Both the position numbers and the translations under genes were made by a program. A stretch of 64,000 nucleotides of DNA from Chthonomonas sp. (GTDB taxonomy: Bacteria > Armatimonadota > Fimbriimonadia > Fimbriimonadales > Fimbriimonadaceae), in NCBI GenBank assembly GCA_016788115.1, contig JAEURR010000008.1, forward strand, positions 124,001-188,000, read 5' to 3'. The stretch's first letter is position 1; the number at the start of each line of letters is the position of its first letter. This document shows, piece by piece, positions 16,858 to 32,082 of this stretch. Below the pieces are notes generated by a model. The model worked only from the letters and a program-made list of their open reading frames with translations. It was not told the origin of the DNA and did no database searches.

Positions 16858-17778
16858 TCACGTAATCTCGAGATCGTGTAGCATGCGCGGGTTCTGACGC
16901 CACTCTGGTCGAATTTTGACGACGAGTTCTAGGTACACCCGCTGACCTAAGATGTCCTCGATTTCGATCCGGGATTCGGTGCCTATCTGCTTGAGCATCG
17001 CCCCCTGCTTTCCGATCATGATCGCCTTCTGTCCGTCCTTCTCGACGACGATGCTAGCCGTGATCCGCACACGATCCCGCTCCGGTTCTGGCTCCCACAT
17101 CTCCACGACCGTCGCGATCGCGTGGGGAACTTCCTGTTTTGTGAGTCGCAACGCCTTCTCGCGGATGAGCTCGGCGGCGAGCCGCCGCATCGGTTGATCG
17201 GTGAACTCGTCCTCGGGCCACTGGCTGTCACCCTGCGGAAGCCGGGCAACGATCATTTCCAGCAGCTTCTCGGCGTTCTGCTTCTTGGTTAAGCACGTGA
17301 GCATGTACTCTGCGGTGCCGAAGAGCTCGCAGTACGCCTCGACATTCTCCTTGACGAACTCAGCGCGTAGAAGGTCCATTTTGTTGAGACACAGGATGAT
17401 GCCGTTGAAGCCTGGGTGTTCTTGGGCATGCGGATACTTCCAGACGGCTTCTACAAGCTCGGCGATGGCGCGGTCTTCGTCCTGCGGTGGCTTGCTGCAG
17501 TCGGCCACGAACAAGATCATGTCGACCTCGGCCAACGCACCTTTGGCGGCGTCGTTCATGATCCGCCCGAGATGGGTGTGAGGCTCATGCATGCCCGGCG
17601 TATCCAGCAGTGCGAGTTGGAAATCGGGTTCGGACAGAATGCCCAAAATTCGTGAACGGGTGGTCTGGCGCTTGTTGCTGACAATCGACACTTTCTGGCC
17701 GACGAGTTGGTTCACCAGAGTCGATTTCCCGACGTTGGGCTTGCCGATGACCGCAATGGCTCCGCAGCGGTGGTTCAC
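16858..17778 (-). CDS. era: GTPase Era
   Basis: A 306-residue GTPase that binds 16S rRNA near its 3' end and assists 30S subunit assembly. The N-terminal G domain has G1 GKPNVGKST, the switch region SNKRQTTRSRI, G3 DTPGMHEP and G4 NKMD. The C-terminal KH domain contains SIVVEKDGQKAIMIGKQGAMLKQIG. The length is typical. It is the last gene of a minus-strand series (lysS, HAD phosphatase, glycosidase-like fusion, era), with only 3 bp between the fusion gene and era. Confidence 0.97.
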   Translation of the reverse strand: MNHRCGAIAVIGKPNVGKSTLVNQLVGQKVSIVSNKRQTTRSRILGILSEPDFQLALLDTPGMHEPHTHLGRIMNDAAKGALAEVDMILFVADCSKPPQDEDRAIAELVEAVWKYPHAQEHPGFNGIILCLNKMDLLRAEFVKENVEAYCELFGTAEYMLTCLTKKQNAEKLLEMIVARLPQGDSQWPEDEFTDQPMRRLAAELIREKALRLTKQEVPHAIATVVEMWEPEPERDRVRITASIVVEKDGQKAIMIGKQGAMLKQIGTESRIEIEDILGQRVYLELVVKIRPEWRQNPRMLHDLEIT

Positions 17779-17781
17779 AGG

Positions 17782-20700
17782 CTATTCCCGCTTCCTAAAG
17801 ACGACGCTCATCCCAAGTTCTCCAATGGGCTCCGAGACTTCTCCAGGCCGCCGGTCCTGGCTGCCGCGCCGACGTCGTCGACGGCGTCTGGTCCCTGGGC
17901 TCACACGCTCGTCGAGGTCGCTGAGCTCCTCGGGAAGGTCCACCTCGATTTGGCTCGGTTTCAGCAGCAGGTCGTCAGCCAGCTCTTCGGTCCATCCTTC
18001 TTCCATCCACTCACCTAGCTTCATGATTGGGACTTCAAAGTTGAGGTGGTCGTAGTCAATCGTGTTTTCTGGGCGGTCCGGGATCGCCGGAGCGATGAGA
18101 AGCTCATCGAGATTGCGATTCAGCATCGCGTCCAACTCGCTGCGCGGCCCGACGGCAAAGACGTACGTCATCCCGTCCATGGCTGTGAAGCGAAGATGGG
18201 TTTGATCGAGAGCTGCCCACTCGTGGGTTCCGACATTGTAAGCGGCCCACTTGTCAGGCAACGTGATCGCCCGTGGGCCGGGCTTCGTACAGTGCACGGT
18301 GAGGAATGGCGGGCGCACATGGACCACATCGTCGTGGTAGTTCCATGCGGGGGCGCCGGCCATGTCTCCGAGGGCGCGGACCAAGGCTGGCGTCATCACC
18401 GGTTCGCCGAGGAACACACTCGTCCAGCGGCCGTCCGTTTGCTCTGCTCCGTCGAACTCCCGAATGACGTAGCTGGGCAGACCGGTTTGGCTGTACTCAC
18501 CCAGGACGATCGCGTTCTCGGGGATCGCGAAGTAGCTTGGTTCTAGCTGGCTGCCAGCAGCCAGATCTCGATCTGGAATCGCCTCGCACAGCGGGTGACG
18601 TCGGTTCAGGACCGTTGAACCCGACCTGCTTGCGTAAGGCTGGGGCTTGAGGGCGATGCCGGTAACCTCGCGTACCCGTTCTAGGGCGTCGCGGCCCGAA
18701 TCGAAGACCCCTGCTGCGTACATCCAGAAAAGAACCTTTCCGTCGCGCTGAAGACGACTCTTGATCGCGCTTCGCACTTCGGGTCGGATGTCCCACGCAT
18801 TCACGAAGATGTGAACCTTACACTCGGGGAAGTTCTCACGGTGGGCGAGATCGCTCAGCAAATAGAAGCCGGCGCTCAGCCCGCTGCGCAGGACCGATTC
18901 GCGCACGTTTTGCACGAGGAGCCCAAACGCTTTGGCGTCGGCCAAGTAGGCTAGCGAGCGCTCGTCAATGAAAACGGCCACATCGGGATTTGTTGCTTGC
19001 CCGATGCGGGCTCGGAGCAACGCTTCTCGGACTAGCTCGGCACGTTGCCAGATCCCGGGAGTATTGAGCCATCCGTTGCCCCAAATGTCCATCCAGCATA
19101 TGCCGCTGCTATGGGCAAGGGCCGCGCCGGCTCCGCGCCACTGGACGCTCTCGAGCGCCTGCGGAGTTCGGATGGTTGGGTTGAAATCGTCCGGCTCTTG
19201 CTGGCCGCTGCTGATTGGCGTCTTGAAGTCCTCTTCGCTGATGTAAAGCTTGCCATTGAGCGCAAAGCTGTCAATAGGGCAAGGGAACGGACATGTGCCG
19301 CCCGGCAGTCGATTCTTGTAGCTTGGCGGACCGGCAATGATGTCTACTTCGGGCGTCCGGAGCAACTTGCCGAGGCTCAGGTGGCCGCTGGCAGCGTGAT
19401 CCCACTCAAACGTGTACCCGTAGCTCACTCCCACAAGGAACATTCCATCGGTCGCTTTCTTGACCGCATATGCCAGGCTGCTGATCCGCTCGACGGTGGC
19501 GTCGCTCAGGAAGAGGTGCGTGTCCACCCATCGGCGCTGCTTGCGCCCGGTGCGCACAAAGTCCTCAGCCTTGCCTGAGTTGTACTTTGGCAAAAGGACG
19601 TTATCAAAGGTGACCTTTCCGTCAAACCACGCGGCCCGGAGGGCCACCGTGTCGTTGCTGTAGCGCATTCTCAGCCACTCGCGGAACTTGGTCAAAGACG
19701 CTGCCGAGGTGTCGTAACCTTGGCCGTTGGCGAAGAACCACTCGCCCCGTTCGATGTGCAGACCGAGGATGTTGCCCGCATTCGGCAGGCGCATCAGCTG
19801 CTGCGAGAAGCTCGCGAGACATTCAGCCGCAACCTCCCAGAACTCGTCGTGGCAGATGCTCGGTTCGGCGAGCTCGCCCTGTGCGTTCGCGTAGGCCGCT
19901 CCGGGATATCGTTTTTCCCAGTCGTTCGGAGCGGTGAAAACCAGGCGGAACATAACCTGCGAGTCTGGGTTGACGCTCACTGTCTTGTCGAGCAGAAACG
20001 CGGCGACACCGACGGCATCCTCAACTCGCGCAGGATCGACGATGAACTCAACGTAGTGGATGAACGCCGAGACCCCGTGCTCGTGGGCGAGCCGGATCTC
20101 TTCGAAAACGTTGTCCGATCTGCGCTGATCCGAGGCAGCCCCAAAGAAAAAGATGGGAGGAATGACTTTGCCGTCTCGAACGAGCAGCGCGTGGCCCTCT
20201 TGCTGGATGACTTGGGGAGCGTTCGCTGGGATTCGCACCGGCTCGCGCTTCGGCTTGGCGGGCGGTTCGGGCTCCTTTGAAACAACGGGTTCAGGGCGCG
20301 GCGTCTTCTCAGCGCGTGCCCGCTGCGGTCGTTCAGGTCGAGCTTGTTTTGGCTCCTCGCGCTCGGAATCGGGCACCAAGGCGTCGGCGGCAGTCACGAG
20401 TTTGCCGCGTCCGCGTCGTCGGCTGCGGCGCGTCGAGCTTCGTGCTTCCTCCTCGGCTTCGGGCGCGGCGGCCCCGCTGGCAATGCTTGCGGCGGTACCG
20501 GCGGCGCGCCACTGGAGGATCACGAGCTCATCGCGATTCGGGGGCGTTGTGATCTCCGGAAGCGCTGGGATGGCCACGGCTGCGGGCTTCTGGCCACCAC
20601 GAATCGGCTTTGCCGAGACAGCGGCGGGCTTTTGGGGGGTCGCCTCGCGGCGGGTCACCGGGCGGAAAGAGATCTCGATGCGGCCTTCGGGATCGTTCCA

Positions 20701-20958
20701 AGCAAACTGGGTCGGCTTCGGCTTAGGGGCTCGCTTCCGGCTGGCTGGCTTCTCCGGTGCCGTTTCAACTGCGGCGGGTTCGGGATTCGGCGCAGGCGTA
20801 CGCTTGGGGCGGGATGGGCGCCGCGGCGCCTCCGTAATGGCTTCGACGACGGGGGGAACTACCTCTACGTTCGGGGTCTTCTTGGCGCGAGTAGTTCGCG
20901 TCTTCGGCTGTTCGGTTGCGACCGCGGTCGCTTCAGTGGTTGCTTTCGGTTTTCGCAT
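17782..20958 (-). CDS. GH42-like glycosidase core fused to basic disordered N- and C-terminal regions
   Basis: A 1058-residue protein without signal peptide or membrane segment. Residues 1-245 are disordered, rich in Lys, Arg, Pro, Ala and Glu, with RSSTRRSRRRGRGK around 173-186. Residues 255-640 look like a clan GH-A TIM barrel related to GH42: IPPIFFFGAAS, HIERGEWF (candidate acid/base Glu403) and KLYISEEDF (candidate nucleophile Glu575). Residues 655-940 resemble the trimerisation and beta-sandwich regions of GH42. An Arg8 run (1024-1031) near the C-terminus is coded by six different Arg codons, so it is not a DNA repeat. The start overlaps the HAD gene by 26 bp, and era follows after 3 bp. 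A basic-tailed cytoplasmic glycosidase is unexpected; RNA or ribosome association is speculation. Activity and substrate are unknown. Confidence 0.75.
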   Translation of the reverse strand: MRKPKATTEATAVATEQPKTRTTRAKKTPNVEVVPPVVEAITEAPRRPSRPKRTPAPNPEPAAVETAPEKPASRKRAPKPKPTQFAWNDPEGRIEISFRPVTRREATPQKPAAVSAKPIRGGQKPAAVAIPALPEITTPPNRDELVILQWRAAGTAASIASGAAAPEAEEEARSSTRRSRRRGRGKLVTAADALVPDSEREEPKQARPERPQRARAEKTPRPEPVVSKEPEPPAKPKREPVRIPANAPQVIQQEGHALLVRDGKVIPPIFFFGAASDQRRSDNVFEEIRLAHEHGVSAFIHYVEFIVDPARVEDAVGVAAFLLDKTVSVNPDSQVMFRLVFTAPNDWEKRYPGAAYANAQGELAEPSICHDEFWEVAAECLASFSQQLMRLPNAGNILGLHIERGEWFFANGQGYDTSAASLTKFREWLRMRYSNDTVALRAAWFDGKVTFDNVLLPKYNSGKAEDFVRTGRKQRRWVDTHLFLSDATVERISSLAYAVKKATDGMFLVGVSYGYTFEWDHAASGHLSLGKLLRTPEVDIIAGPPSYKNRLPGGTCPFPCPIDSFALNGKLYISEEDFKTPISSGQQEPDDFNPTIRTPQALESVQWRGAGAALAHSSGICWMDIWGNGWLNTPGIWQRAELVREALLRARIGQATNPDVAVFIDERSLAYLADAKAFGLLVQNVRESVLRSGLSAGFYLLSDLAHRENFPECKVHIFVNAWDIRPEVRSAIKSRLQRDGKVLFWMYAAGVFDSGRDALERVREVTGIALKPQPYASRSGSTVLNRRHPLCEAIPDRDLAAGSQLEPSYFAIPENAIVLGEYSQTGLPSYVIREFDGAEQTDGRWTSVFLGEPVMTPALVRALGDMAGAPAWNYHDDVVHVRPPFLTVHCTKPGPRAITLPDKWAAYNVGTHEWAALDQTHLRFTAMDGMTYVFAVGPRSELDAMLNRNLDELLIAPAIPDRPENTIDYDHLNFEVPIMKLGEWMEEGWTEELADDLLLKPSQIEVDLPEELSDLDERVSPGTRRRRRRRRGSQDRRPGEVSEPIGELGMSVVFRKRE

Positions 20959-21643
20959 AGGGGATTTCTAAACTCTGTTGGATGGCTTCAAGCAAGGCTT
21001 CGGGAGTATCGAACATCGCCAGCGGATGCCACTTGGCAAGCTGTCCGACCGTTCCCGCTCCGTACGTGACGCCGATGGATCGGACTCCGGCACTGGCAGC
21101 GCACTCCAAGTCGAATGCGGAATCGCCGATCAGGATCGCTTCCGCGGGGGTGACCTGAAGCTGATGGCAAGCCGCCTCGGCAGGGTCTCCCGCTGGCTTT
21201 GGGTGCGCGGCATCTTCGGCGGCAATGACCGAATCCACTTGACTCAAAGCTGGAAACTGATCGAGGAATTCGCGCAACTCGACACGATTCTTGCTCGTGA
21301 CTAAGCCGATACGTTTTCCTGCCCCGCGGAGCTGGTGCATGGCCAGAACCGCCGGTTCAAAAAGGCGACTGCGCGACTGATGATGACGAAACCGGTCCAT
21401 CGCGAACTGTACGCGATCTTGGACCTCATGGGGAGCGGACTCGCCGAGACCGAGCAGATTCATCTGATCGTGAAGCGGGCGTCCAATGATGCTCCGTAAA
21501 AAACCGTCATCCGGTCGGGTGCCTGAAAACTCTTCGAATGTATCTCCGAGACCTGCCGCAATGATCGGCACGGTATCGGCGAGAGTTCCATCGACATCGA
21601 AGAGTACAGCTTTGCACTCGCTCAACGCCTGTAGAACTGTCAT
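20933..21643 (-). CDS. HAD-superfamily phosphatase, phosphoglycolate-phosphatase-like
   Basis: A 236-residue haloacid-dehalogenase-type hydrolase with an alpha-helical cap. Motif I is DVDGTLADT (nucleophile Asp), motif II is VTSKN, motif III is the Lys in HPKPAGDP, and motif IV is GDSAFDLECAASAG. These motifs and the length fit the Gph/PpaX group, which hydrolyses 2-phosphoglycolate or pyrophosphate. The exact substrate cannot be told from sequence. Its 3' end overlaps the start of the glycosidase-like fusion by 26 bp, so they are very likely translationally coupled. lysS lies 24 bp upstream. Confidence 0.88.
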   Translation of the reverse strand: MTVLQALSECKAVLFDVDGTLADTVPIIAAGLGDTFEEFSGTRPDDGFLRSIIGRPLHDQMNLLGLGESAPHEVQDRVQFAMDRFRHHQSRSRLFEPAVLAMHQLRGAGKRIGLVTSKNRVELREFLDQFPALSQVDSVIAAEDAAHPKPAGDPAEAACHQLQVTPAEAILIGDSAFDLECAASAGVRSIGVTYGAGTVGQLAKWHPLAMFDTPEALLEAIQQSLEIPYAKTESNH

Positions 21644-21667: not shown

Positions 21668-23185
21668 TCACTCGGCGGCGTGCGACTCAGGCCGCATCAT
21701 GGGGAAGAGCAGGATCTCCCGCAGCGAATCCGCGCCCGTGAGAAGCATCGCCATACGGTCGATACCGATGCCGCACCCACCCGTCGGGGGCATCCCGCAT
21801 TCGAGCGCGTAAATGAAGTCTTCGTCCATCGGATGCGCCTCTTCGTCCCCCTTTTCACGCTCAGCGACCTGGCCTTCGAACCGCTCGCGCTGGTCAATGG
21901 GGTCATTGATCTCACTGAACGCGTTGCATAGCTCTCGCCCAAGCACATACCCTTCGAATCGGCGGGTAAATCCGGGCCGGGCGGGGTCCTTCTTGGCGAG
22001 CGGCGAGGTCTCCAGCGGGTAGCCGATGACGAATGAGGGCTGGATGAGCGTCGGCTCGACGAAGACCTCGAGCAGCTTCTCTATCAGCCCACCGAGCTGG
22101 TGCTCCTCTTCAAGGATGATCCGCTTCTTGGTCTGTTCGTTGAAGAGCCGCTTGCCAGCGAGGGCTTTCTTGGCGGTCTCGAGCGTGGCGAAGTCTTCCG
22201 GCGACGTCTGCGTGTGCCGCCCGATCTCGCCGAGCAAGTCAACGCGGTGCCAGTCTGGCCCAAAGTCGATTTCGGTTTCACCGTGCAGAATCTTGGTCGT
22301 GCCGAAGACCTCAAGCGCGACGCTTCGCATCATCTCTTCGACCAGGGTCATGATGTCTTCCAAGTTCGAGTAAGCCTCGTAAAACTCCAGCAGCGTGAAC
22401 TCGGGGTTATGCCGGTTGCTCACGCTCTCATTGCGGAAGACACGTCCGATTTCGTACACCTTCGGGACATCGCCGCAAATGCATCGCTTGAGGTAGAGCT
22501 CCAGAGAGATTCGAAGCTTCACTTCCAGTTCGTAGAAGTTGTAGTGCGTGAGGAATGGGCGTGCGGCCGCGCCACCAGCCTCAAGCTGCAACAAGGGGGT
22601 CTCCACCTCCAGATAGCCGCGACTGTCCATGAATCGGCGCACGCTGCTCACGATCCGCGACCGATCAAGCAGCAGCTTGCGAGACTCGGGATTCGCGATC
22701 AAATCGAGGTGGCGGTGGCGGTACCGTTGATCGACATCTGTGAGTCCGTACCACTGTTGGCCGTCCTTTTCCTTGCCCAGCGGCAAGCTCTGCAGGCACT
22801 TGCTCAGCGGGACGAAGTCGCGGACATGAATGGACTGTTCTCCGGTTTTGGTAACAAACAGCTCGCCGCTGACGCCCACGTGATCGCCCAGGTCCAGGAG
22901 CTTGAAAACTTCCCAGAGGGTCTCCCCGATGTCATCCTTGCGGAAATAGACTTGGATCTTGCCGTCGCCATCGCTCAGGTGGGCAAACGCTGCCTTTCCC
23001 ATCAGACGGCTGGCGACCACGCGGCCCGCGAACTGCACCTGCTTACCTTCTTCAAACCTCTCAAGAAGGCCCGAGGCCGTGTCAGAGCTTACGAACCGCT
23101 CTTGGGCGAACGGATCAAAGCCCAACTCTCGAAGCATTTGTAGGTTCTGGAGTCGGATATCGCGCAGGGATTGATCTTCGGACAT
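21668..23185 (-). CDS. lysS: Lysine--tRNA ligase, class II
   Basis: A 505-residue aminoacyl-tRNA synthetase that charges tRNA-Lys. An N-terminal OB-fold (VQFAGRVVASRLMGKAAFAHLSD) binds the anticodon. The class II catalytic core follows, with motif 2 (YEIGRVFRNESVSNRHNPEFTLLEFYEAY) and motif 3 (GCGIGIDRMAMLLTG). The ATG at 23185 (MSEDQSLRDIRLQNL) is chosen over the longer frame to 23221, which overlaps the divergent promoter region and has no family similarity. It heads the minus-strand cluster with the HAD phosphatase, the glycosidase-like fusion and era. Confidence 0.96.
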   Translation of the reverse strand: MSEDQSLRDIRLQNLQMLRELGFDPFAQERFVSSDTASGLLERFEEGKQVQFAGRVVASRLMGKAAFAHLSDGDGKIQVYFRKDDIGETLWEVFKLLDLGDHVGVSGELFVTKTGEQSIHVRDFVPLSKCLQSLPLGKEKDGQQWYGLTDVDQRYRHRHLDLIANPESRKLLLDRSRIVSSVRRFMDSRGYLEVETPLLQLEAGGAAARPFLTHYNFYELEVKLRISLELYLKRCICGDVPKVYEIGRVFRNESVSNRHNPEFTLLEFYEAYSNLEDIMTLVEEMMRSVALEVFGTTKILHGETEIDFGPDWHRVDLLGEIGRHTQTSPEDFATLETAKKALAGKRLFNEQTKKRIILEEEHQLGGLIEKLLEVFVEPTLIQPSFVIGYPLETSPLAKKDPARPGFTRRFEGYVLGRELCNAFSEINDPIDQRERFEGQVAEREKGDEEAHPMDEDFIYALECGMPPTGGCGIGIDRMAMLLTGADSLREILLFPMMRPESHAAE

Positions 23186-23243
23186 TGAAGAGCGATTGTA
23201 CTCGAAGGTTCGAAACCCCACGGGTTGAGTAAGATTTGTCCCG

Positions 23244-25619: not shown

Positions 25620-27098
25620 ATGAGCGGGTCAAGGTTTGAGCGGATTGTGGGCGTCGAGACTGAATTCGGCACACTGACCGACTGCCCCGAGTTCAGTAAT
25701 CCTGAGCAAGCGGTTGCCGCCATCAAAGACGCTGTCTTCTACGATCTCAAGCTCGGATTGATCGACCGACATGCCCGAGACGATGTGTTCGAGCCTGCAC
25801 TCAGTGGCGGATTCCTCATGAACGGGGGGCGACTCTACATTGATGCGGTTGGTTCGCACCTGGAGTACGCCACCGCCGAATCGAGAACGATCAAAGACGC
25901 GATTGCACACGACCGCGCGGGTCACCGGATCATCACTCAGGCATTGCGCGGACTCGCATTGCAGGACAAAGTCTCCGTCTATAACAATTCAGTAGATCAC
26001 TTCGGAGGCCATACCTTTGGATCGCACGAGAACTACCTGACCGTGATGGAGGAAGACTTCTTCAGTCACCAGGTGAACGAGCTGATACCGTTCCTCGTAA
26101 CGCGACAAATATTCGCGGGAGTCGGACGAGTCGGGGGACACCGTTTGGATGCCGTAGCAAAGCGGCCGAGTTACGATGAAGTTATGGCAAATCCGGTGGA
26201 CTACATCTGGGTCAGCCAAGTTTACGGAGTGGAGCCGGACTCAACTGTCAACTTTCAACTCAGCCAACGAGCTGACCATATCATCAAGTCCGTCGCAAGC
26301 AGGGTCCGGTTTAACCGCGCGCTGATCAACCCGAAGTGGGAGCATTTTTACTCCCACGATCGGATGCAGCGGTTACACCTTCTCTTTGGCGAGTCGAACC
26401 AGATGGAGTTCGCTTTCGCCCTGAAGCTGGGGACGACGCGCCTGGTGTTGCATTTGATCGAGGATCGCGTCCTTGACTCGTCCATCTGGCTCGATAGTCC
26501 GCTGTACGCGCTTCGCGAGATCAGCCGCGACCAGACCTTCGAGTGGCGTGTGACGATGGCAGATGGTTCGGAGTCCGACGCAGTCTCCGTGCAGCGACGC
26601 TACCTGGAACTTGCCCAGGGCTATCGCGGAATGAGCGCGGAGGGTGATTGGACACTGGATGCCTGGCAGCAGACTCTGGACGCGCTCGAACGCGACCCTT
26701 TGTCACTCGGTGACCGGCTTGACTGGGTCGCCAAGCGGGCGATGGTTGAGACCTTCAAGGAAGATGCAGGGATCGATTGGACGGACGATGTGCTGCACTC
26801 CATCGACCTGGAGTATCACAATCTGGATCCCGAACGATCTCTTCACCGAGCGCTTGTCGAGTCAGGACAAGCGCAGCGCTTTGTCACGGACCTCGACATT
26901 ATCGAGGCGATGACGGAGCCGCCGTCCGACACCCGCGCGGCCGGAAGGGGCAAGCTCATCCGTCGCGTGCTGCAGCGCAAAAACCCGCGTTTCTACGTCT
27001 TCGATTGGAATGGGGCATCGACCGAGCGTCACGAGTTTCTGGAGTTTTCGGACCCGTTCCATACGTACGAAGAGGTGGTTCCACCACAAGAATCGTAA
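25620..27098 (+). CDS. pafA: Pup--protein ligase (PafA/Dop family)
   Basis: A 492-residue carboxylate-amine ligase-fold enzyme. The ATP/Mg-binding start is VGVETEFG (Glu13, Glu15). The catalytic Asp is in GGRLYIDAVGSHLEYATAE (Asp75), a form that matches PafA (GSHxEYATxE) better than Dop. SHENYLTV, FLVTRQIFAGVG, and QRADHI also follow the PafA order. PafA couples Pup, or the related UBact of Gram-negative phyla, to lysines of target proteins. No Pup/UBact, proteasome alpha or beta subunit, Mpa/Arc or Dop gene is in the window. The ECF sigma gene follows 58 bp later on the same strand. That it is a working ligase is inferred from retained residues. Confidence 0.88.
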   Translation: MSGSRFERIVGVETEFGTLTDCPEFSNPEQAVAAIKDAVFYDLKLGLIDRHARDDVFEPALSGGFLMNGGRLYIDAVGSHLEYATAESRTIKDAIAHDRAGHRIITQALRGLALQDKVSVYNNSVDHFGGHTFGSHENYLTVMEEDFFSHQVNELIPFLVTRQIFAGVGRVGGHRLDAVAKRPSYDEVMANPVDYIWVSQVYGVEPDSTVNFQLSQRADHIIKSVASRVRFNRALINPKWEHFYSHDRMQRLHLLFGESNQMEFAFALKLGTTRLVLHLIEDRVLDSSIWLDSPLYALREISRDQTFEWRVTMADGSESDAVSVQRRYLELAQGYRGMSAEGDWTLDAWQQTLDALERDPLSLGDRLDWVAKRAMVETFKEDAGIDWTDDVLHSIDLEYHNLDPERSLHRALVESGQAQRFVTDLDIIEAMTEPPSDTRAAGRGKLIRRVLQRKNPRFYVFDWNGASTERHEFLEFSDPFHTYEEVVPPQES

Positions 27099-27156
27099 AT
27101 TTCTTCTCTTGTGAACTATCAGAAATAAGGTAGACGTCGTAAACTTGAGGCATTCC

Positions 27157-27717
27157 ATGAACGGTTCAGCGACGAATCAAGCAAGTATGGACGCCCGCAT
27201 CGACGAGATGCGGTGGGTAAGCCGCGTACGCCAAGGGGACGAGGTCGCACTGTCGATACTCATCTCCCGGCACCGCACTAGGCTCATCCGTGTTGCCGCG
27301 AACATCCTGCGCGACGCGCACGAAGCAGAGGATGTCGCCCAGGACGCTTTCCTGAAAGCGTTCCGCGAGATCAAAAACCTTCGCGATGACCGCGCCTTTT
27401 CCGGCTATCTGTATCGCATCTGCGTCCGACTTTGCATGGACCGGCTACGATCGCGCAAAGCGGACACCGCCGAATTCGACGGAGTCGAGCAAGATCGCGG
27501 CACCCAGGTGGACAACAAAATTGTCATCCAAAAGCTGTTGGGATTGCTGGCACCCGATTTGCGCACTACACTCGTCCTCCGAGAAATGGAGCAACTGAGC
27601 TACGAAGAGATTGCCGATCTTATGCACGTCCCGGTGGGCACGGTCCGATCACGGCTGCATACGGCTCGGGAGCGTTTTCGACACCTGTGGCTAGAGGAGA
27701 GTCGCGGAGCGTACTGA
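27157..27717 (+). CDS. ECF-type RNA polymerase sigma factor
   Basis: A 186-residue sigma-70 family protein. Region 2 is clear (HRTRLIRVAANILRDAHEAEDVAQDAFLKAF and LYRICVRLCMDRLR), as is region 4 (LAPDLRTTLVLREMEQLSYEEIADLMHVPVGTVRSRLHTARERF). Region 3 is absent, as in ECF factors. The ATG at 27157 is used because GAGG (27147-27150) sits 6 nt upstream; a TTG at 27145 is in frame but less likely. The next gene encodes a small membrane protein that is a probable anti-sigma factor. Together they are expected to respond to an envelope or membrane signal. Its target promoters are unknown. Confidence 0.93.
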   Translation: MNGSATNQASMDARIDEMRWVSRVRQGDEVALSILISRHRTRLIRVAANILRDAHEAEDVAQDAFLKAFREIKNLRDDRAFSGYLYRICVRLCMDRLRSRKADTAEFDGVEQDRGTQVDNKIVIQKLLGLLAPDLRTTLVLREMEQLSYEEIADLMHVPVGTVRSRLHTARERFRHLWLEESRGAY

Positions 27718-28159: not shown

Positions 28160-29707
28160 ATGCGGCCGATCAGTCGGGGGCTCATCGGGGCGTGCATTGG
28201 AGCGCTACTGGTCCTCGTCTTCTATCCAACCACCCGACCGTACTTCAATCCAGGGGAGCTCCACCGTGTGGAGCCACTCCTCAAAAGGTCGGTTTGGATT
28301 CCGGAGAACCTGAAGGTCGCCCCAGATCCAGTCAATGCGGTGGCCGCCGCTTACTACTTGGGACTCGCGGCACAGAAGCTCGAGCTGCAAGAGCAGTCGA
28401 ATCCGGTAGATCTTGATCGATGGGCTCGGCTGGCCGAGCAGCTCACGGCGAGCGACAAGACGAACGCGTTCTGGCCACAATTGCTGGCAGTTTTGCGCGA
28501 TGCCCAGGGTCGCCCCGATCAAGCGCGCTGGGCTTGGAGCTTGGGCTCAAAGCGCATGCGCTGGGACGACTATCAGGAGGTCCGAGTGAATCGGGTCCTT
28601 GAGGAGATCGGCAGCTCAACAAGCCCCGACCTTGCGTGGCACAACTCGGTGGCGTTTCAAACGCGGCTGACCGCCGCTCCCCGGCTAATCCGTAGGTACG
28701 GTGCGCGGCTTGTGGGAACCAAGCCACTTTCGGATCCTGAGTCTTTGGACATCCGGTACGAGACAGTCCGCAATGCCCAGCTACTGCGCGACGGTTCGCA
28801 GACGTTAGAGCAGTTTCGTATCGGCGCACTGCTCATGGAGGTACCGGCGCGCCCTGTCAAGGTTGCAGACTCCTCGTCCGAGAGACAATTGCTCCTCGGT
28901 CGATTTGAACTCATCAATGCGATGCGCGCGGCAGGTCAAGTCGGCCGCGGAGCTGAGCTGGAGGCTGCCTACCAAAGGAACGCAAGCTGGATCGCGCTCA
29001 TCGGGTTCGCGGAGGCGTCTGGCGACCGAAAGAGACTTGAAACTGCGGCATACTTTTCAGGCACTGTCGGGCCATCCATGGTGGCCTTGTGCCTGTTTGT
29101 CAGCTTGGCGGCGACACTGGGCTGGGTGCTCGGGGTCGGCCGCAAGATCACGGGCCAAAAACTACTCGGACTGGCGGCGCTCAACATTCTTGCGGCCCTG
29201 ATCCTGAGCCATAGTTGGTATGTCATTCTTGCGACCTGTGCTTGCTGGGGGTTTTTCTTGGTTTCGAAGCACGCTCGCCGGTCTGCGCAGATCGATGATC
29301 TGGGGCTGCTTTTTCGAGTAGTGCTGACTGTACTCAGCGGGGGGCTCATTCTTTCAGGAGCGTTACTCATCATGAGCCGATCGGATGCAAATCTCGCTCT
29401 CAGCGAGGTCGCCTCTTGGACATTTGGAAACCTGACAAAGCCTCAGCCTATGCTCGAGATATCGCTGGTGTTGATAGCGCTGACAGCATTCCTTTGTCCG
29501 TCATGGTCGTTAATCTCGCGGTTCCCGACGTTGCGCGTCTTTGACTATGTCAGCCGCAAGGCGTTAGAGAACCTTTTGGTTTCTTCGCTTTTCGCGGCGG
29601 TCTTCGTGGGACTCGGCGCGATGGTCGCGGACCGAGCGATTTCCGTTCGATTGTCCGAACTAGGGCGTAATGAGCCGACTTACTACTATAATCGATGGGC
29701 GAAATGA
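28160..29707 (+). CDS. Multi-pass membrane protein of unknown function
   Basis: A 515-residue protein with an N-terminal membrane anchor (IGACIGALLVLVFYP), then about 270 residues of soluble helical repeats (AAYYLGLAAQKL, FWPQLLAVLRDAQGRPDQARWAW), which look TPR-like, then a C-terminal block of about six hydrophobic segments (MVALCLFVSLAATLGWVLGVG onward). No family is recognised. It is the third gene of the sigma/anti-sigma series and its stop overlaps the glnD start. It may be a sensor or effector of that system, but nothing in the sequence shows a mechanism. Confidence 0.7.
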   Translation: MRPISRGLIGACIGALLVLVFYPTTRPYFNPGELHRVEPLLKRSVWIPENLKVAPDPVNAVAAAYYLGLAAQKLELQEQSNPVDLDRWARLAEQLTASDKTNAFWPQLLAVLRDAQGRPDQARWAWSLGSKRMRWDDYQEVRVNRVLEEIGSSTSPDLAWHNSVAFQTRLTAAPRLIRRYGARLVGTKPLSDPESLDIRYETVRNAQLLRDGSQTLEQFRIGALLMEVPARPVKVADSSSERQLLLGRFELINAMRAAGQVGRGAELEAAYQRNASWIALIGFAEASGDRKRLETAAYFSGTVGPSMVALCLFVSLAATLGWVLGVGRKITGQKLLGLAALNILAALILSHSWYVILATCACWGFFLVSKHARRSAQIDDLGLLFRVVLTVLSGGLILSGALLIMSRSDANLALSEVASWTFGNLTKPQPMLEISLVLIALTAFLCPSWSLISRFPTLRVFDYVSRKALENLLVSSLFAAVFVGLGAMVADRAISVRLSELGRNEPTYYYNRWAK

Positions 29708-32082
29708 ATCTGACCGAGTCCATGATCGCGCCCGAACTGCTGGCTCGACGCCACACTTTGCTGCAAGAGTTGATCGACCAACCGAGCGGGCTCGAATGGT
29801 GTGCGCGGCTCACAGACGTCTCTGATGCGGCGATACGCGCCATTCTGCAACGAACATCAGACAAACTCGGTGTTGTCCCTGAGGTCGCGGTCATCGCTAC
29901 CGGTGGCTACGGCCGAATGGAGCTAAGCCCTTGGTCTGATCTTGACCTGACGGTCATCCCCAGGGACGAACACGATGCAGAACTCGACGGCTGGCTCAAG
30001 TCTTTTTTTCTGTCGCTGCAGGAAGAGATTTATCGCTACTGGCACATCAAGCCGAGCTACGCATATCGGCTCATGGGCGATCTGGCGGGGGCGGACACCA
30101 AAACGCTAACAAGTCTGCTTGACACTCGGCTTCTTTGGGGGTCCCATGACGTTCATGAGATGTTCCAGGCTCAACTCGTTGCCGAACTCCCAGTAGGGCA
30201 GTTTCTCATCGATAAGGTTGCCGAACGAGAAGCTGCGTTTCGGCGGTGCCACGACACTCCTCTGGTCGTCGAACCTGACCTCAAAGAGGGCGCGGGTGGA
30301 CTGCGATGCTTCCAGACCGCCAATTGGATCGGAACGGCGATTGGTGAGCGGCCACGCCGGGCGACGCCAGACTACGAGCGTGTCGTCCTCGCGCGCAATC
30401 TCTTGCAAGTGAACTCGGGCGCAAATCGCAATGTGTTGACCCGCCCACAGCAGGGCGAGATTTGCGAGCGCCAAGGCTGGGATCTCTTCAAATGGATGGG
30501 TCCGCTCATTGAATCGATGCGGGCACTGCACGCCACGTATCGTTCGGCACGCGAAGAGTTGCTTGAGGGCCGGTATCGCGTCTACGGGAACGTCTACGCG
30601 GCTCGCGGCGAAGTGAGGATTGATGGCAATGCCCGCTGCAGCGAGGCCGCCTACGGAGTGCGACTTGCGTCCACCCTCGGGTTGCGTGTTCCCGAGCACC
30701 GGGTCCTTTGTCGTTCCGAGATCGATCCACGGGAGGCACTGGACGCGATTTCGCGCAGCGAGCAGAGTTTGAGAGCGCTTGACGCGTGCGGAATCTTGGA
30801 ACAGATCCTGCCGGAGTTCACCGCATGCCGCGCCTGGTTGCCAAGAGACTCCGATCACCAGTTCGCAGTGTACGAGCACTCTCTTCGAATGCTTCGGATT
30901 CTTGAGCATCGTTCGGGATGGCCCGGCTGGCTACAGGAGCTTGCAGAGGAGATTGAGGATTACGGACTCTTAACGCTCGCGATCCTGCTCCATGACGTTG
31001 GCAAACGCCAGGATGAGGCGGCGCACGAAGAGCTTGGCGCAGAGGCAGCGCGGGTCGTGGGTCAGAGATGGAACTTGGAGCCAGCGCAAACCGAACTCGT
31101 GGCTTGGCTCGTGCGTGAGCACCTCACCCTGGCGCGATTTGCACGGTTGCGGGACGTGGCGCTCCCCGAGACCTCTGAAGAGCTTGCGGGAATCGTCGGC
31201 ACCGTCAATCGGCTGGCACTCTTGGCGGTGCTCACCTATGCCGACATTTGCGCGGTCCGCGAAGGCGCGTGGAGACCCGACATCGAGTCGTTCTTGGTGG
31301 AACTCACCTCGCGCACACGCGGGATCCTGCAAGGCCGACACGCTCCGGTGCCCAGCCACGAAGGTGTCCGACGACGCGTGATGCGGCGCGCAAGCCGAGG
31401 TGCGATCTCCGCAGAGGATATGGCAGCGTTCGTAGAAACACTGCCCGCAACCTATTTGGCTTCCGTACCCATAGAGCTCGTTGAACAGCATGCGGAGTGG
31501 GTGAGTTCAGCGCGCGATCAGGCGGCGATTCTTGACTTTGCCGATCGCCCCGATGGCGTCCATAGCGATCTGACGGTGGTCACAAAGGACGAACCAGGAC
31601 TCCTGAGCCGCATCCTTGGTGTTCTCTATGCGATGGACCTGAGCATCGCAGGGTTGCGGGCTCACACAACACGAGAATCGGATCCGATGGCCATCGACGT
31701 CATCACGGTGTCGTTTGGAAAACAAACAATCTCGAAATCCCTCGCCGAGCGGACCATCGCAACCTTGCGCAGCGTGTTGAATCGCGAGGTGTCCGAAGAA
31801 TCAGTGATCCTTGCCCGTGGTAAGGATCCCGAAAGGACTCAGCGCATCTACGAGGCGAACTACCGGGCTGGGAACCCTGCCATGTTGGAGATTCGAGCCC
31901 CCCGCGGTCGAGGACTGGCGTTTCGAATGTCGCGGCTCATCACCCATTTAGGTTGGGATATTCAGTCTGCAAGAGTAGGACAGTGGGGGGGGCTTGGAGT
32001 CGCCGGATTCTATGTCGTGGGTCGTGACGGTGCACCGGTGACCCAGGCCGAGTTCGATTCAGCGTTCCCTCCGCAGGTATAA
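29695..32082 (+). CDS. glnD: PII uridylyltransferase/uridylyl-removing enzyme (GlnD)
   Basis: A 795-residue bifunctional nitrogen sensor. The order is nucleotidyltransferase (GGYGRMELSPWSDLDL), a helical region, an HD hydrolase domain (HSLRMLRI, then LLHDVGKRQDEAAHEE) and two C-terminal ACT domains (VVTKDEPGLLSRILGVLY; MLEIRAPRGRGLAFRMSRLI). It uridylylates PII (GlnB/GlnK) when glutamine is low and removes UMP when it is high. Glu replaces the usual residues in the SPWSDLDL stretch only slightly, so activity is plausible. Start ATG 29695 or 29704; the latter forms ATGA with the previous stop. No glnB or glnK is in the window. Confidence 0.93.
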   Translation: MGEMNLTESMIAPELLARRHTLLQELIDQPSGLEWCARLTDVSDAAIRAILQRTSDKLGVVPEVAVIATGGYGRMELSPWSDLDLTVIPRDEHDAELDGWLKSFFLSLQEEIYRYWHIKPSYAYRLMGDLAGADTKTLTSLLDTRLLWGSHDVHEMFQAQLVAELPVGQFLIDKVAEREAAFRRCHDTPLVVEPDLKEGAGGLRCFQTANWIGTAIGERPRRATPDYERVVLARNLLQVNSGANRNVLTRPQQGEICERQGWDLFKWMGPLIESMRALHATYRSAREELLEGRYRVYGNVYAARGEVRIDGNARCSEAAYGVRLASTLGLRVPEHRVLCRSEIDPREALDAISRSEQSLRALDACGILEQILPEFTACRAWLPRDSDHQFAVYEHSLRMLRILEHRSGWPGWLQELAEEIEDYGLLTLAILLHDVGKRQDEAAHEELGAEAARVVGQRWNLEPAQTELVAWLVREHLTLARFARLRDVALPETSEELAGIVGTVNRLALLAVLTYADICAVREGAWRPDIESFLVELTSRTRGILQGRHAPVPSHEGVRRRVMRRASRGAISAEDMAAFVETLPATYLASVPIELVEQHAEWVSSARDQAAILDFADRPDGVHSDLTVVTKDEPGLLSRILGVLYAMDLSIAGLRAHTTRESDPMAIDVITVSFGKQTISKSLAERTIATLRSVLNREVSEESVILARGKDPERTQRIYEANYRAGNPAMLEIRAPRGRGLAFRMSRLITHLGWDIQSARVGQWGGLGVAGFYVVGRDGAPVTQAEFDSAFPPQV

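Follow-up and report, generated by a model that had tools for sequence, protein, structure and literature searches.

A protein that joins a predicted GH42-type barrel to two basic, disordered tails is encoded by a single-copy core gene across one bacterial order, and represents a new architecture, built on a known fold and so far confined to one phylum; a literature search recovered neither a study nor an annotation of such a tailed GH42-like protein. Tentatively, we regard it as a GH42 barrel that was co-opted for a cytoplasmic role as a multivalent protein, one that probably binds RNA or ribosome precursors. The gene lies in the window, by which we mean the whole 64,000-nucleotide stretch of DNA analyzed, on contig C8 of a 2.4 Mb genome whose closest named relatives are Armatimonadota, chiefly Fimbriimonadaceae/Fimbriimonadales MAGs. 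Elsewhere in the window, a Pup ligase/depupylase family gene (25620-27098, plus strand; PF03136, 416 bits), a sign of a Pup-proteasome system in this genome, adjoins accD and an ECF sigma factor gene (27145-27717), and a 515-aa open reading frame with no Pfam match (28160-29707, plus strand) stands upstream of a gene for a GlnD-like protein (29695-32082).

The protein comprises a basic, disordered N-terminus (residues 1 to about 240), a folded core (245 to about 960), and a disordered C-terminus bearing eight consecutive arginines, with the following features:

17782..20958, minus strand: gene of the tailed GH42-like protein, 1058 aa, ATG start, TAG stop, no internal stop
20227..20958, minus strand: basic, Pro/Ala/Glu-rich disordered N-terminal region, residues 1-244 (from pLDDT and composition; kept in orthologues)
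20401..20430, minus strand: Arg-rich patch RRSRRRGRGK, residues 177-186 (from the sequence)
18079..20226, minus strand: GH42-like core with TIM barrel, Rossmann-like middle domain, and beta domain, residues 245-960 (predicted by AlphaFold2)
17953..18012, minus strand: conserved acidic segment EWMEEGWTEELADDLLLKPS, residues 983-1002, between the core and the Arg run
17866..17889, minus strand: eight Arg, residues 1024-1031, from mixed codons

A sequence-only reading had described a Lys/Arg/Pro/Glu-rich N-terminal region containing RRSRRRGRGK, an Arg run written in mixed codons, and a cytoplasmic protein without a signal peptide, and each of these descriptions was upheld. The first 244 residues contain 19 Lys, 31 Arg, 41 Pro, and 26 Glu; the run is encoded by AGA CGC CGT CGA CGA CGT CGG CGC; and the protein has neither a signal peptide nor a hydrophobic N-terminus, which, unlike the condition of its secreted paralogues, supports a cytoplasmic location. 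The tails are also conserved. A basic N-region is present in all 62 Fimbriimonadales orthologues examined, and a C-terminal 15-mer with at least eight Lys or Arg was found in 79 of the 81 orthologues whose C-tail could be read versus none of 23 secreted paralogues, the typical run being GRRRRRRRRG in Fimbriimonadales and RRRRRGGRGRGK elsewhere. In a full-length model, built for the monomer only, nearly all of residues 1-218 (where pLDDT is almost throughout below 50) and 979-1058 were predicted to be disordered, and docking of the tails on their own core was rejected on this basis.

The GH42-like barrel proposed by the same reading was confirmed and narrowed to the GH42 architecture. The AlphaFold2 model of residues 245-1005, calculated from an alignment of 57 relatives, reached a pLDDT of 87.5 and a pTM of 0.89 and contains a confidently modeled GH-A barrel. 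Foldseek placed GH42 beta-galactosidases on top (3tts, E 3.5e-22), and VIA-align superposed the core on 3tts with a Z of 22.4 at 3.5 A over 601 of 675 residues (13% identity), a match that spans the barrel, the middle domain, and the beta domain. The three-domain GH42 fold, including its middle trimerization-type domain, thus appears from the model to be present. By sequence the relationship is distant: the window protein scores 15.5 bits against Pfam GH42 (PF02449), below the curated cut-off of 21, while L160, a tailed orthologue from another part of the phylum, scores 35.1 bits, above it; NCBIfam returned no match, a single-sequence search of the PDB returned no relatives, and a profile search returned a weak GH42 match. 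The window protein is therefore described as related to GH42 rather than filed in it.

Two segments of the barrel carry the candidate catalytic residues:

19735..19755, minus strand: IERGEWF, residues 402-408, at the end of beta4 and in the next loop, with E406 as the likely acid/base (conservation, model)
19225..19245, minus strand: YISEEDF, residues 572-578, on beta7, with E575 as the likely nucleophile and D577 nearly invariant (conservation, model)

In the model, beta4 ends at residue 403 and beta7 comprises residues 571-577, so that E575 lies inside its strand; E406, three residues past beta4, was placed by alignment and conservation. Because Glu is conserved at position 406 (77/84 tailed orthologues, 24/30 secreted paralogues) and at position 575 (78/83 and 28/30, respectively), E406 and E575 are the likely catalytic pair. 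The sequence-only reading had nominated Glu403 and Glu575; the latter remains a well-placed nucleophile candidate, and the former was rejected in favor of the better conserved E406: at position 403, 45 tailed orthologues have E, 35 D, three G, and one N, and most secreted paralogues have N or A. The pair has nonetheless been lost in some lineages. Residues 406/575 read R/L in L083, S/L in L088, P/D in L094, I/E in L089, E/L in L069 and L076, Q/E in L082, and, as a milder change, D/E in L058; L025 and L027 are further cases. The tree forces at least four catalytic-residue changes, a count that includes L106, a partial row of uncertain placement. Apart from L106, each of the named orthologues keeps its tails and an adjoining era gene, which suggests that catalysis is dispensable.

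One homologue per genome was found in 57 of 61 relatives and in all 51 good genomes, and the few second matches are split halves. In a survey of 40 further genomes from across the phylum, families f8, f12, f17, f26, and f28 have one copy per genome of a high-scoring form (676-851 bits), which has a basic N-region and an Arg/Lys-rich C-terminal tail and lacks a signal peptide. A lower-scoring form (<460 bits) is scattered, with up to 13 matches per genome; its members mostly end about 25 aa or less past the core (range 2-82), lack an Arg run, and in many cases have export signals or extra N-terminal domains. This secreted GH42-like family (L130-L157), which in other Armatimonadota has expanded to as many as 13 matches in a single genome, lies near the Pfam cut-off. 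In a tree of 57 cores, tailed and secreted proteins are split on one branch with a support of 100, the tailed clade covering about ten Armatimonadota families, and the relatives found in other phyla, Hydrogenedentota L104 and Victivallales L105, belong to the secreted type. In this tree, taken without a root, a change from secreted to cytoplasmic is the likelier direction.

The tails hold a short aromatic-Arg peptide, present in the window protein at these places:

20647..20682, minus strand: [FW]R motif copy RIEISFRPVTRR, residues 93-104, in the N-terminal region
20497..20529, minus strand: [FW]R motif copy ELVILQWRAAG, residues 144-154, in the N-terminal region
17785..17817, minus strand: conserved C-terminal end motif LGMSVVFRKRE, residues 1048-1058

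The N-region repeat has the consensus (D/E)-(D/E)-L-P-V-P-x-[FW]-R-[SP]-R and occurs in one to five copies in every one of 62 Fimbriimonadales N-regions, in which Arg directly follows 129 of 255 Phe or Trp residues versus 26 expected; R151, which belongs to the WR copy closest to the core, does not vary among 49 full-length orthologues. The extreme C-terminal peptide is akin to this repeat and reads xNV[MV]FRKR[DE], or xIxWR[KR]x in f2. An aromatic-Arg end motif persists in f2, f3, and f4 (L169, L170, L172-L175), with era non-adjacent in f2 and f4. When genomes were searched with DLPVxx[FW]RxR and a C-terminal FRKR[DE], this gene was recovered and other matches stayed at about the level of a reversed-pattern control, which argues against a shared sorting or targeting tag; the peptide is practically confined to the tailed gene and may well be a docking peptide for one partner protein.

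Three neighboring genes were considered:

20933..21643, minus strand: HAD phosphatase gene (PpaX/phosphoglycolate-phosphatase-like), overlapping the start of the tailed gene by 26 nt
16858..17778, minus strand: era (GTPase and KH domain), with a GTG start 3 nt past the stop of the tailed gene
21668..23221, minus strand: lysS, upstream, unconserved past the nearest relatives

Given the 26-nt overlap and the GTG placed 3 nt after the TAG, the HAD gene, the tailed gene, and era look translationally coupled. From the window alone, a cluster of lysS, HAD, and era had been proposed; the HAD gene and, within a limited clade, era proved to be conserved partners, and lysS proved incidental and was removed from the unit, as it adjoins the tailed gene in the nearest relatives only. 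The background gene order is thus shuffled, and the link to era, a ribosome-assembly gene, is conspicuous against it: of the 62 Fimbriimonadales loci in which era was found, 61 have it immediately downstream in the same orientation (it is inverted in L049), so that the link is near-invariant in Fimbriimonadaceae, and the f3 and f5 loci that were examined have era next to the tailed gene as well. It was not found beside the tailed gene in f2, f4, or the other families and classes examined and hence cannot define the ancestral role. The HAD gene, which scores below every equivalog cut-off, is directly upstream in many f1 loci (26 recognized), in 7/7 from f2, in one each from f3 and f4, and in 3/3 from f8, far outside Fimbriimonadales; it is the oldest conserved neighbor, and its link is older than that of era. 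Moreover, era often keeps unrelated metabolic neighbors whose persistence is unexplained (PMC10582724), so that linkage to era alone is weak evidence.

The reading that we tentatively prefer would combine these observations as follows. In an ancestor of some of the Armatimonadota, a GH42-type three-domain scaffold would, on one occasion, have lost its export signal and gained the basic, disordered N-terminus and the Arg-rich C-terminus. If the protein forms a homotrimer, as GH42 enzymes suggest by analogy, three N-tails and three C-tails would extend outward from one body. No RNA-binding domain was found in the protein; the Arg runs would anchor it on RNA, with rRNA or ribosome precursors as the most likely targets because it appears to be co-translated with Era. 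The (D/E)LPVPx[FW]R repeats, together with VFRKRE, would serve as docking sites for a protein partner, producing a multivalent RNA-protein hub, and the barrel would still bind a glycoside, which it could cleave in most lineages, with catalysis being dispensable.

The alternative that survives best, although we consider it rather unlikely, is an ordinary cytoplasmic GH42-type glycosidase or glycosyltransferase that works alongside the HAD phosphatase in the turnover of sugars or sugar phosphates, its tails serving solubility or placement and era being a fellow traveler. Roughly nine-tenths of orthologues retain an intact E406/E575 pair, an argument that chemistry is important in the majority, and D577, T580, R608, D624, and W630 are almost invariant; the directly upstream position of the HAD gene in f1, f2, f3, f4, and f8 likewise accords with such a role. 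Against it stand the lineages that lost catalytic Glu independently yet retained tails and era, and also the Arg tail and the [FW]R motif themselves, both of which are strongly conserved.

Basic tails also fit binding to DNA, polyphosphate, or membranes. A nucleoid protein, whose tails would bind DNA in the manner of AT-hook or histone-H1-like tails with the barrel as a binding body, is improbable: the N-region is K/P/A-rich, and three to four AT-hook-like KRGRGRPRK repeats occur in the N-regions of the orthologues L007 and L093, but such repeats are found in few members, and the partner gene encodes the RNA-binding Era rather than a DNA protein. It is more improbable still that the tails, cationic and without a defined domain, place the enzyme at another polyanion such as polyphosphate, acidic polysaccharide, or the inner membrane, as they contain no hydrophobic segment and no tie to envelope genes was found. 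That a frame error, a wrong start, or an assembly artefact created false tails is refuted by conservation and can be given almost no weight: stops or breaks of their own occur in a few single assemblies (L003, L005, L016, and L023) and not in the window, and the tails, with invariant residues in both, are kept in about 80 orthologues from independent genomes.

A bolder version of the RNA-binding reading, which we hold to be doubtful, is a lineage-specific hub of ribosome biogenesis or of an RNA body, in which a trimeric GH42 barrel with RNA-binding tails and docking peptides would act with Era, its sugar binding perhaps serving as a sensor while catalysis is being discarded. Whatever its role, this is a conserved, order-wide, single-copy gene with no family assignment past a sub-threshold GH42 match, and it bears on why era keeps seemingly metabolic neighbors (PMC10582724). 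Should the tails bind RNA, the protein would connect the recognition of carbohydrates to the biology of RNA or ribosomes in a phylum that has received little study, and would provide a natural series that begins with a secreted enzyme, passes through a tailed enzyme of the cytoplasm, and arrives at a probable pseudoenzyme.

Among known systems, the GH42 beta-galactosidases (3tts, 4oif/5dfa Gan42B, and 1kwg) share the three-domain fold over its full length and, going by alignment and conservation, candidate catalytic Glu residues past beta4 and within beta7; the tailed protein differs from them in its low identity (about 13%), its basic, disordered tails, its order-wide, single-copy gene in a HAD-X-era operon, and the loss of catalytic Glu in some lineages. 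With the secreted paralogues, including L104 and L105 from other phyla, it shares the core family, GEWF, and E-x-D-x-x-T, whereas those proteins are exported or have extra N-terminal domains, end at the core without an Arg run, and occur in many copies per genome. The FtsZ C-terminal peptide resembles the [FW]R peptide in its acidic start, L/I-P, aromatic residue, and Arg. Both FtsZ paralogues of this genome, L107 (G000:C6:143026) and L108 (G000:C3:243106), have a complete one (DLDIPAFLRE and DLDIPTFLRRQ). Compared with these two, the tailed protein's peptide is similar and not the same, with [FW]R-x-R instead of FLR, several copies, and no FtsZ domain; identity with an FtsZ-type peptide was rejected, and the similarity may be chance. 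Finally, in RNase E, short Arg-rich motifs bind RNA and partners, the cyanobacterial RRRRRRSSA binding PNPase (PMC11964227). No RNase E/G catalytic domain was matched by Pfam in the tailed protein, and its motif sequences differ. Migration of an RNase E tail to the GH42-like protein was considered and set aside, the absence of an Arg tail from the genome's RNase E/G (L109), which is encoded elsewhere, being suggestive only. In both proteins, an enzyme body adjoins a disordered region that carries short motifs, Arg-rich and repeated, a likeness to RNase E scaffolds that is, by analogy, one of working principle rather than of family.
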